Positions 2,475 to 6,312 of a DNA stretch of 64,000 bases are shown here, in pieces. Below the pieces are notes generated by a model. It was not told the DNA's origin. It made no database searches and saw nothing but the letters and a program-made list of their open reading frames with translations. The position numbers and the translations under genes are program-made. How positions within the stretch are numbered: position 1 is the first letter of the stretch; each line of letters begins with the position of its first letter. The stretch comes from Alphaproteobacteria bacterium (GTDB lineage: Bacteria; Pseudomonadota; Alphaproteobacteria; MPNO01; UBA830): NCBI GenBank assembly GCA_022822405.1, contig JAJEBT010000007.1, positions 1-64,000 of the forward strand, written 5' to 3'.

Positions 2475-2791
2475 CCTTGCCTCCCGCGCCCTTCCGCCGC
2501 CGATCCGTGCCGACGGCCACCTTCGATGCCGCCCTCTATCGTGCGCCGCTCCCCATTGCGGGCAGCCGAAGAGCGACAGCCAAACACAACCCACGGGACC
2601 GCAAAACGCAACCCCGCGCAGACACCCCTCGGGAACCGCGCCACTTCAGCCCCGGGTTCGCGCCGGGCGCAGGAAACCCGCGTCCTAAACCGCGTGCGTT
2701 CCGGATGCGGGTTCGGATAGCGTGCAGGACATGCCCGCCGACACCACCGACAGCGCCTGCCGTCCCTGCCACCCGCCGGAGGCGGCCTGAG

Positions 2792-5700
2792 ATGGTCGCC
2801 ACGCACGGCAGGCCGGCCCCGGCCGCATACTATCTCGACAGCCAGCAGACGCTCCACGGCCCGCTTCACGGCGCCGGGGGCCGGCGCGAGGCCAGCGGCG
2901 AGTGGTGGAACCCGGCCGGACTGTTCGGCCTTCCCGACCGCGGCCCGGTCGAAGGTGCCGCGTTCGCCAGCCTCCATCGCGGCTTCTCCCCGGACGGCGG
3001 CACGGCGCTGGTGCGGAACGCCGGCCAACGCCGCCGCTGCGGCATAGACCTCGTGTTCCCGGCCGACAAGTCGGTCTCCGCGCTGTGGGCGATCTCCGAC
3101 CCGACCACGGGCCGACTGATCGAGGAGGCGCATGACGATGCCGTCCGCCTCGCGCTCATGGAGATCGTCGCAAGGCATGCGATGTCGAACACGAAGGTTC
3201 ATGCCGGCGCCCGGACCGGACTTGTTCCCGCCGACGTCATGGGGGCCACGTTCCGGCACGGATCGAGCCGGGCGCGCGATCCGCATCTTCACACCCACTG
3301 CGTGATCTTCAACCTCGCGCGGCTCCGCAACGGCGGCGGATGGCGCGCATCGTGGGAGGCGCCTCTCCATTTCTGGTTGAGGGCCGCGGGAGCGGCGTAC
3401 CAGCACGCGCTGGCCTGGAACCTCCGCGAGCGCATCGGCGTCCGCTGCGGACCCCATGGTCGTAACGGGGCGCTGATACGCGTCGCGGGCGTGCCTCCCG
3501 GGCTGATCCGCCAGTGGTCGAAGCGGAGACAGGCCATGGAAACCGCGATACGGGAGGCCGGAGTGCGGATGCGCAGCGTAACGGGCACCCAGACCGCGAT
3601 GTTCGCGCGGGCCACGCGCGACGAGGAGGACCGGCACCCGGACCTCGAGGAGCTCCGCCCCGTATGGGCGCGCGAACGGGAGTCCTGGGTCTCCAACCCC
3701 GCCCGCCTCATAGCCTCGCTGTCGAAGCCTGACGAGCTGTTCCCGCCACCGAGCCGCTCCGAGATTCTCCGCAAGCTGGAATGCGTGCCCGACGATCTCG
3801 CGGCGCGCGGCTCCCCGTTCTCCCATCCGGAGCTGGTCGAGCGCGTTTGCACCGTCTCCGCCGGCGCCATGGGCTGGCGCGATGCAAACGCGTGGATCAT
3901 GGCCGCCGTGACGCGCCCCGACGTCATCCGGGTCGACAATCCCGAGCGGTCGGCCGCGGCCCGCGCCGGCCAGATGCACTCGCGGTTTTATGCCCTCAGG
4001 GAAACCTCCGAATTCGGGAACGCCCTCAGGGAAACGGCGCGCGAACTGTTCCTGGACACCCGATTCGGCGTGCCCCAAGCCAGGGTCGAGGCACGGATCC
4101 GGAGCCTCACGGCGGCCGGCTATCCGCTCGCCGCCGCCGACATCGCGGCGATCCGCCACGCCACGGCGGCGCACCGCGTCGCCGTCATCGAGTTCGCCCC
4201 GGCGCTAGACCGCAGCCTTGCCCTGCGTCCGGCCGCAGACCTTTATCGCGAGGAGGGCTACCAGGTGATCGGGGCCGCCGCCACGCTCCGCGCGGCCGCC
4301 GAGCTCCGAAACGAGAGCGGTATCGCGTCGATGCAGATCAACAGGCTCCTGTCGATGAACGACAAGGGCGCGCTCGACGACAACCAGGCCGCGGTGTTCG
4401 TGGTTGCCGACGCCGGCATCCTCCTTGAGCGCCAGATTGCGGCGCTGTTTGCGCTCGCCGGGCGCTATACGGCGAAGATCGTCCTGGTTGCGGAAGCGGG
4501 CCAGCAGCCGCCACTTGCGGCGGCTCCGGGCCTCGGCTTCGTCACCGGCGTCACCGGCTGCCTGCGTTCCGGCGGCCGGCCGGCCGGCGACGCCGTGTCC
4601 GAGGCCTTTTCCAAGGATCTCGTCCAGCTCGGCAACGGGCTCGGGGAGACGCTGGAGCGGATGGCCGGGGACTGCGACCGGCTCAGGACCGGCCATCCCC
4701 GCGACTCGGTCGCGGTCGTCGCCCGCACCCGCAAGGAGGAAAGGGTCTTGACCCACCTCCTTCGCGCCCGCCTGCCCCGCTCTGCCGCCGAGGGCGGGCG
4801 CGCCTGCATCCAGATCCACCAGCACAGGGGGCAGATGGCGTACAGGATATCCGTGCCGATGGAGATCCGGGCCGGCGACCGGCTCAGGCTCGGCGCCACC
4901 CTGTGGGAGGCGCGCCTGTTCCGCGGCTCGGTGGTCACCGTCGAGGACATCGTCGCCACCGCGTCAGTCACCGAAGAAGAGCCGCGTTTCCTCATCCGCG
5001 CGGCGACGCGCGACGGGCGGCAGGTCGAGTTCTTCCACAACGATGTCCGCGACAGCCATGGCGGCGTCCGGCTCGAGCACGGATACGCCTGCACGGTCGA
5101 CGAGCTGGTCGGCAGGTTCGACCGCGTCCTGGTGCTCGCCGACGACGGCTGGCGGCGGGGGCAGCTGGAACGCGTTGCGGCCTGCTGCCGCGGCCAGCCC
5201 GAGATCCATGTCAACCGCAAGCAGCTGACGGTGGCGTTCGGGACCCCGGCCGGCGACGACGCGCTTCTCGATCGCCTGCGCCGATGCTGGTCGCTTGCCA
5301 ACGGACGCGGCCATCCCTGCGGAGACCGGAGGCTCCATCCCGACTACTACACCGAACCTAAAAGCTGGCTTGCGGCCAATGACGGCGGCGACGGAACGCT
5401 GCGGCGCCTCGGCCAGGACATCGCCCAGGCCACGCTCGACCTGCGCCACGGCAACACGATCGCCGCCTTCGCCGCCGGCAGGGCCGCGGTGCTCGAAGAA
5501 TGGGCGGCGTGCCGCGAGCGCATCGCCGTCGACGGTGATGCGGCACTGCTCGCGCCATCCGCCGCCGGGACCCTGCGCCGGCACAGGGCGCTCCTTCACT
5601 CCCTCGAGACCCTGCCGCGACGGTGGACACCCCCGGTGCAGCGGATGTTCGCGGCGCGCGGTGGCCTGTCGACGCAAGACATTCGGGAGTTCGTTGCGCT

Positions 5701-6166
5701 CTACCGGCAGCTGCGCGACCAGCGGAGGATCGCGGCGGTGCGCCAGCCACCGAAAGAGGCCGCCCACGCGGACACCGCCGCAATCAAGACCTGGCTGGCC
5801 GAGGTGGCGCGCCAGCGGCGGTTCCGCGCCTTTGTGCTCGATGCCGCGGAACGCCACGCCGGGCGCGCCCGCGAGATCCCGTCATGGCGGAACAGCCTGG
5901 CCGACGCCGAGCGGCTGATCGCCCGCGGCCGCGCGATCCTCGCCGCCGGCGGCGTGGCGCAGACGGGCGATGCGGGACGCGGCGCGGTGCAGGCCGCCGT
6001 GGCGGCGCTCGAGGCGGAACGGCGCGAGGACCTGTCGGTTCCCGACCGGAGGCTCGATCCGGCGCCCGACACGGCGCCGCGCCGGGGCTTGGCTGCCGAG
6101 GTGACACAGGCGCACCGGCAACCCGGGGACCATCGCCTGGCCCGGGGGAGGTCGATGTCCTACTGA
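2792..6166 (+). CDS. MobF/TrwC-type relaxase fused to a helicase-like region with degenerate motifs
   Basis: AAYYLDS...IDLVFPADKSVSALWA...FRHGSSRARDPHLHTHCVIFN (3H metal motif) as in TrwC/TraI; ATG at 2792; C-terminal half aligns by eye to the TraI/TrwC helicase. Confidence 0.85.
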   Translation: MVATHGRPAPAAYYLDSQQTLHGPLHGAGGRREASGEWWNPAGLFGLPDRGPVEGAAFASLHRGFSPDGGTALVRNAGQRRRCGIDLVFPADKSVSALWAISDPTTGRLIEEAHDDAVRLALMEIVARHAMSNTKVHAGARTGLVPADVMGATFRHGSSRARDPHLHTHCVIFNLARLRNGGGWRASWEAPLHFWLRAAGAAYQHALAWNLRERIGVRCGPHGRNGALIRVAGVPPGLIRQWSKRRQAMETAIREAGVRMRSVTGTQTAMFARATRDEEDRHPDLEELRPVWARERESWVSNPARLIASLSKPDELFPPPSRSEILRKLECVPDDLAARGSPFSHPELVERVCTVSAGAMGWRDANAWIMAAVTRPDVIRVDNPERSAAARAGQMHSRFYALRETSEFGNALRETARELFLDTRFGVPQARVEARIRSLTAAGYPLAAADIAAIRHATAAHRVAVIEFAPALDRSLALRPAADLYREEGYQVIGAAATLRAAAELRNESGIASMQINRLLSMNDKGALDDNQAAVFVVADAGILLERQIAALFALAGRYTAKIVLVAEAGQQPPLAAAPGLGFVTGVTGCLRSGGRPAGDAVSEAFSKDLVQLGNGLGETLERMAGDCDRLRTGHPRDSVAVVARTRKEERVLTHLLRARLPRSAAEGGRACIQIHQHRGQMAYRISVPMEIRAGDRLRLGATLWEARLFRGSVVTVEDIVATASVTEEEPRFLIRAATRDGRQVEFFHNDVRDSHGGVRLEHGYACTVDELVGRFDRVLVLADDGWRRGQLERVAACCRGQPEIHVNRKQLTVAFGTPAGDDALLDRLRRCWSLANGRGHPCGDRRLHPDYYTEPKSWLAANDGGDGTLRRLGQDIAQATLDLRHGNTIAAFAAGRAAVLEEWAACRERIAVDGDAALLAPSAAGTLRRHRALLHSLETLPRRWTPPVQRMFAARGGLSTQDIREFVALYRQLRDQRRIAAVRQPPKEAAHADTAAIKTWLAEVARQRRFRAFVLDAAERHAGRAREIPSWRNSLADAERLIARGRAILAAGGVAQTGDAGRGAVQAAVAALEAERREDLSVPDRRLDPAPDTAPRRGLAAEVTQAHRQPGDHRLARGRSMSY

Positions 6167-6312
6167 CGTCCGGCCGCGAACTTCGAGCGCGGGCGCGCTT
6201 GCGTCGAGCGCAGGCGGATGGCACATATTCCGGGTGGCGGACGGTTGCGCCGTGGCATGTTTCCCCTGAATTTCATGCACCAGGATCCGCGGCCGGGCAC
6301 GGAGCGCGAATC

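Follow-up and report, generated by a model that had tools for sequence, protein, structure and literature searches.

The window analysed here, a 64,000-nucleotide stretch of alphaproteobacterial DNA, encodes a full-length MobF relaxase, which has kept the residues of the HUH nuclease but has lost every helicase motif together with the second catalytic tyrosine pair. A second full-length copy (79% amino acid identity) with the same dead motifs is present on another contig, C118, of the same genome. The coordinated loss of ATPase motifs, claimed in the original prediction from the single gene, is thus real and common to two copies at unrelated chromosomal loci. We read the protein as a repurposed chromosomal single-tyrosine HUH nickase or ssDNA-binding protein with a vestigial helicase, acting locally at a hairpin, likely the one in its own 65-bp upstream element. 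We hold this reading as tentative: plausible, but short of probable.

Relaxase domain and helicase motifs of the window protein

The gene is a frame of 1124 codons without interruption, along which the profile matches are distributed, in agreement with the claim of a full-length, unshifted gene. The ATG at 2792 is its likely start, since the same alignment position is the start in the second copy and in the intact relatives. Residues 31-296 match the TrwC relaxase family (PF08751, 2.5e-51; 175.4 bits with a cut-off of 25), and the NCBIfam MobF model NF041492 scores 156.7 (cut-off 100). The solved relatives detected by sequence are the relaxase domains of TrwC and TraI. Tyr13/Tyr14, Asp86, His156, His167 and His169 are present as in intact members, and the HUH residues are kept in both dead copies; the proposed N-terminal TrwC/TraI pattern is borne out by these matches and residues. 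The helicase region is also recognized by a profile (AAA_30, PF13604, residues 452-577, 1.7e-14). A chance open frame in GC-rich DNA was ruled out by the profile matches, by the divergence of the two copies by codon position and by their omega value.

The AlphaFold2 model of the window protein, built on 26 sequences, had a mean pLDDT of 77.4 and a pTM of 0.55; this pTM is modest, therefore the domain arrangement is uncertain. Foldseek matched the relaxase half to TrwC with a TMt of 0.77-0.86, and gave looser matches to F TraI (5n8o) and RecD2 (3gp8) along the helicase region. In the model the TrwC and RecD-like folds are kept. A C-terminal half unlike helicases would have spoken against the original prediction; by profile and by predicted fold this half is helicase-like.

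The motifs were placed by alignment to an intact paralogue encoded on contig C148 of the same genome. The alignment has no gaps around motifs I-III, which rules out misplaced motifs. Walker A changed from EGAAGSGKTTTL in the intact paralogue to EFAPALDRSLAL in the window protein, and the arginine of motif VI is now a cysteine. Each of the quoted changes (Walker A, DEAG, GDxxQ, TAHxxQG and the arginine finger) was confirmed and located by this alignment, and the deletion of motif IV (RRQ) can be added to them. The second tyrosine pair, which had been described as not apparent, is truly lost: NSYY of the intact copy corresponds to LHGA in the window copy (C130) and to LDGA in the C118 copy. Coordinates of all features are listed in the table.

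Table. Features of the helicase-dead relaxase locus (window coordinates)
Feature	Position	Strand	Remarks
65-bp upstream element with inverted repeat	2663..2727	+	89% identical in second copy
Inverted repeat AACCCGCGTCC ... GGATGCGGGTT, followed by CGGATAGCGTGCAG tail	2675..2713	+	tail identical in both copies
Helicase-dead MobF relaxase CDS	2792..6166	+	1124 aa plus stop; 79%-aa-identical second copy at G000:C118:68916-72299
HUH relaxase domain	2792..3679	+	aa 1-296; PF08751; model vs TrwC TMt 0.77-0.86; alignment
Lost second tyrosine pair	2870..2875	+	YY in intact relatives, GA here; alignment, motif survey
Vestigial RecD/TraI-like helicase region	4112..5221	+	aa 441-810; PF13604; Foldseek to TraI 5n8o, RecD2 3gp8; 46/106 family-conserved columns kept
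Dead Walker A (EFAPALDRSLAL)	4190..4225	+	alignment, motif survey
Dead Walker B (ADAG)	4406..4417	+	DEAG in intact paralogue
Dead motif III (AEAGQ)	4490..4504	+	GDTQQ in intact paralogue
Deletion region, motif IV site	4565..4609	+	intact relatives: VRVDxIRRQ plus roughly 60-90 more residues
Dead motif V (TVDELVG)	5093..5113	+	SAQG in intact paralogue, DELVG here
Dead motif VI (AACCR)	5177..5191	+	TRHR in intact paralogue, ACCR here
C-terminal helical region, reduced relative to intact members	5222..6163	+	

TrwC of R388 and the TraI proteins of F, R1 and pKM101 likewise consist of an HUH domain, with three histidines, an aspartate and the first tyrosine pair, and a RecD-like region. The window protein differs from them in having neither the second tyrosine pair nor any intact helicase motif. 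In MobF relaxases two tyrosines are needed for efficient transfer (PMC12857230), and transfer also requires the helicase (PMC4853378); a protein without both should therefore not support standard conjugation alone. The vestigial helicase domain of F TraI, which has no Walker A or B, serves as an ssDNA-binding domain (PMC5422253). This domain of F and R1 TraI has the same RecD-like fold, but in those proteins an active second helicase comes after it, whereas the dead helicase of the window protein is its only one. A further difference from F and R1 TraI is that the losses in the window protein arose in a lineage with intact relatives. The literature searched contained no description of a domesticated or helicase-dead MobF relaxase.

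Genomic loci and relatives of the two copies

The genome (G000) is a draft in 222 contigs, with 93.6% completeness and 6.2% contamination. The two dead copies, which differ by 15% in DNA sequence, are both flanked by housekeeping genes, as far as flanking genes were scanned. In the window, the relaxase gene has an HD-domain gene on one side and galU/ugd on the other. The C118 copy lies between RidA and acs, downstream of dnaA, gyrB and a TetR gene; judged by position and sequence starts, the genes between dnaA and gyrB are probably dnaN and recF. At both loci the upstream neighbour is divergently oriented. A mixed MAG as the source of the second copy is countered by gyrB, which is single-copy apart from a 44% relative, probably parE, and by galU of the window contig and acs of the C118 contig, whose best scored matches are in the same family; at a contamination of 6.2%, such a mixture is improbable rather than refuted.

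Around the window gene, where the scanned flanks are housekeeping, we found no T4CP, T4SS or integrase gene. The only T4CP gene found in the genome is on contig C78 (PF02534; L125:9468-11450). No recognised T4SS gene was seen among the few scanned neighbours of that gene. PF03135, the only T4SS family searched, did not detect a VirB4-type ATPase in this incomplete genome. The label "stand-alone relaxase" is thus right for the window, which has no T4CP or T4SS gene, and has to be qualified for the genome, which has one T4CP gene elsewhere.

The intact relative at C148:77922 is 38% identical to residues 1-593 of the window protein. It is a protein of 1670 residues with GAAGSGKTT, DEAG, GDTQQ, RRQ, SAQG, TRHR and the second tyrosine pair. 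Its gene adjoins repC, parA, parB, serine-recombinase and tyrosine-recombinase genes, and therefore probably sits on an integrated plasmid-like element. The genome also contains another MobF relaxase fragment (L008, C84:1905-2366), matching residues 30-186 of the window protein with 38% identity.

Further relatives were collected from GTDB contigs, mainly MAGs labelled Rhodospirillales, Defluviicoccus or Alphaproteobacteria. The proteins of this intact clade are direct relatives with about 28-40% identity and the same N-terminus, and they are longer (open frames mostly of 1345-2214 residues where uncut by a contig end). Unlike the dead pair, those which cover a helicase motif retain Walker A/B, III, IV, SAQG/SSQG and TRHR with minor variants only, and many have a putative oriT upstream. 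The second tyrosine pair is present in all intact relatives covering the site with one exception (L056). In this motif survey, which had been proposed as a check, the helicase-dead state was confined to the two copies of G000. No further helicase-dead member was found in the 97 genomes of relatives or the 27 genomes of the order, its own genome aside, nor in viral contigs; the state is thus known from one MAG, with no third member in the genomes searched. The plasmid and phage matches listed (up to 5000 records for plasmids) were all below 60% identity and none covered 80% of the query, and the window gene had no plasmid DNA match.

Several other relaxases of the collection deserve mention. 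Two MAGs labelled Defluviicoccus have, immediately upstream of an intact MobF relaxase, a relaxase-only MobF paralogue (L055:3572-4771 and L048:6001-7218) in which HxHTH reads HxHTR and the second tyrosine pair is altered. These paralogues group in a single clade (100/99) and represent a second, independent degenerate lineage. In L072 (G091:C105) a relaxase of the intact clade is broken over several frames, apparently as a frameshift pseudogene. Some MAGs carry several MobF relaxases of the clade (L044-L074); jk18x1bzbins.75 accounts for at least seven of the returned loci.

The loss of conserved positions was uneven. A column was counted as family-conserved if at least 95% of 29 intact members agreed in it. 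Of such columns the window copy has kept 58 of 84 in the relaxase region versus 46 of 106 in the helicase region (Fisher p=0.0004). Most losses are common to both dead copies, with the same residue; in the relaxase region 23 of the 84 columns are lost in both. Losses confined to one copy are few: 3 in each copy for the relaxase region, and 6 and 3 for the helicase region. The dead copies group as a single clade (100/100) with a long stem branch (1.43), and their own branch rates are similar (0.23 and 0.17). The same dead motifs in both copies, together with the single clade on a long branch, therefore place the losses before the duplication. One functional and one dead copy is a disfavoured arrangement, with the rates similar and the unique losses balanced.

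Selection on the two copies

Between the dead copies the NG86 omega was 0.44 overall, 0.40 in the relaxase and 0.49 in the helicase region. Of the regions compared, the C-terminal one (residues 871-1124) had the lowest value, 0.336. In neutral simulations covering several transition biases and GC targets, omega never fell below 0.81, the mean number of stops was 3-8, and 0-9% of the runs were free of stops. The copies themselves contain no stops and differ in length at three places, all by whole codons. In eleven intact pairs, used as control, omega ranged from 0.09 to 0.23 for the relaxase and from 0.10 to 0.25 for the helicase region. Both halves are thus constrained, about threefold more weakly than in the intact relatives. 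The pattern favours retention, without proving a strong function: with 0.44 as against at least 0.81 under neutrality, the proposed dN/dS comparison indicates retention under selection, though relaxed.

These values bear on the alternative of slow decay, according to which both copies are remnants of a mobile element becoming pseudogenes, open in part because GC-rich DNA yields few stops. The omega about threefold above that of intact relatives, the long stem branch shared by the copies, the rarity of stops expected in such a sequence (3-8) and the restriction to one MAG with 6.2% contamination are all compatible with decay. It is opposed by an omega lower than in every neutral simulation, also in the helicase region (0.49), by the lack of stops and the whole-codon length differences, by the similar divergence rates of the copies and by the fairly confident predicted fold. 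We consider slow decay rather unlikely. Intact homologues on integrated conjugative elements, combined with signs of decay here, had been named as evidence against domestication: an intact homologue does exist on a probable mobile element (the C148 copy), but the frame shows no decay. Of the domesticated nicking protein, the shared loss and the retention under selection are supported; the nicking itself we infer, and the constraint is about threefold weaker than in the relatives.

The upstream element and the possible role of the protein

In a blastn comparison of the two loci, the shared DNA consisted of only the gene (2778-6172, 85% identity) and the 65-bp block upstream of it. The block has changed less than synonymous sites have (p=0.009), and a genome search located it solely upstream of the two dead copies. 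Even with up to 3 mismatches allowed, the 27-base core of its hairpin had no other genomic site. Folded as a single strand, the region was no stabler than shuffled sequences (z=0.61), and neither Rfam nor promoter scans of the upstream sequence were informative. Each dead gene is oriented away from its upstream neighbour, therefore the block may be an operator or promoter; it may also be a nic-like site or an element end.

An element end would fit a solo rolling-circle element of about 3.5 kb, encoding an IS91/ISCR-like single-tyrosine transposase and bordered by the hairpin on one side. Transposases of the IS91/ISCR type are HUH proteins that lack a helicase, and the HUH tyrosine nuclease, the gene-sized unit and the hairpin near one border are shared features. 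The similarity between the copies begins about 13 bp before the hairpin and ends shortly after the stop codon, the flanks being unrelated, and genomes of the same family have no relaxase within 1.5 kb upstream of galU. However, the window sequence is MobF with the dead helicase still attached, and there are two old copies only, with 15% DNA divergence and no near-identical copy. Nor did we recognise a right end, a defined ori end or solo ends in the genome. No clean empty site was found; in genomes of the same family that lack the relaxase, the galU-ugd synteny is conserved, and so is acs together with the genes upstream of it. We regard the solo element as distinctly unlikely.

Several intact members have a different upstream sequence, CACACCTNTGC followed by a short hairpin and GCTTG, which is the putative oriT of the clade. 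An example of this putative oriT is at L007:11609-11632, in the gap that separates a small divergent ORF from the relaxase. The genome has one site of this putative oriT, 0.3 kb upstream of the intact C148 copy; in the window CACACCTNTGC is absent even at one mismatch, and the putative oriT does not occur at the dead copies. This absence speaks against a trans-acting helper or interfering protein, which would bind the DNA of incoming related elements or relaxosome partners without unwinding, and so block or redirect transfer. The intact relative on a mobile element of the same genome would suit such a role, as would the other degenerate lineage, the relaxase-only paralogues with HxHTR that immediately precede intact relaxases in two related MAGs. 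With identity to the intact copy of 38% and no PADLOC model matching the window protein, we think this role very improbable.

For the reading that we favour, the repurposed chromosomal nickase, we infer the nicking activity, the nicking target and the biological role from the features described. A MobF relaxase would have left a mobile element and become a chromosomal gene. It lost helicase motifs I-VI as well as the tyrosine pair that serves to terminate conjugative transfer; the duplication came later, with both dead copies retained. By analogy with the vestigial domain of F TraI, the RecD-like module most likely kept its ssDNA binding. The HUH domain may cleave or rejoin DNA with a single tyrosine at a hairpin site, the best candidate being the private 65-bp element. 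With its site just ahead of the gene itself, the protein would act locally, in autoregulation or in the processing of the hairpin, rather than in DNA transfer. In a broader sense, a conjugative relaxase-helicase may have turned into a single-tyrosine HUH enzyme with a private hairpin site, which spreads or works inside the chromosome independently of conjugation, as an intermediate between MobF and a rolling-circle transposase or a domesticated nickase; this we consider unlikely.

If the favoured reading is true, the nuclease and the ssDNA-binding fold of a MobF relaxase can serve something besides conjugation. The dead pair would then be a natural separation-of-function protein, and the paired hairpin element would offer a directly testable substrate.
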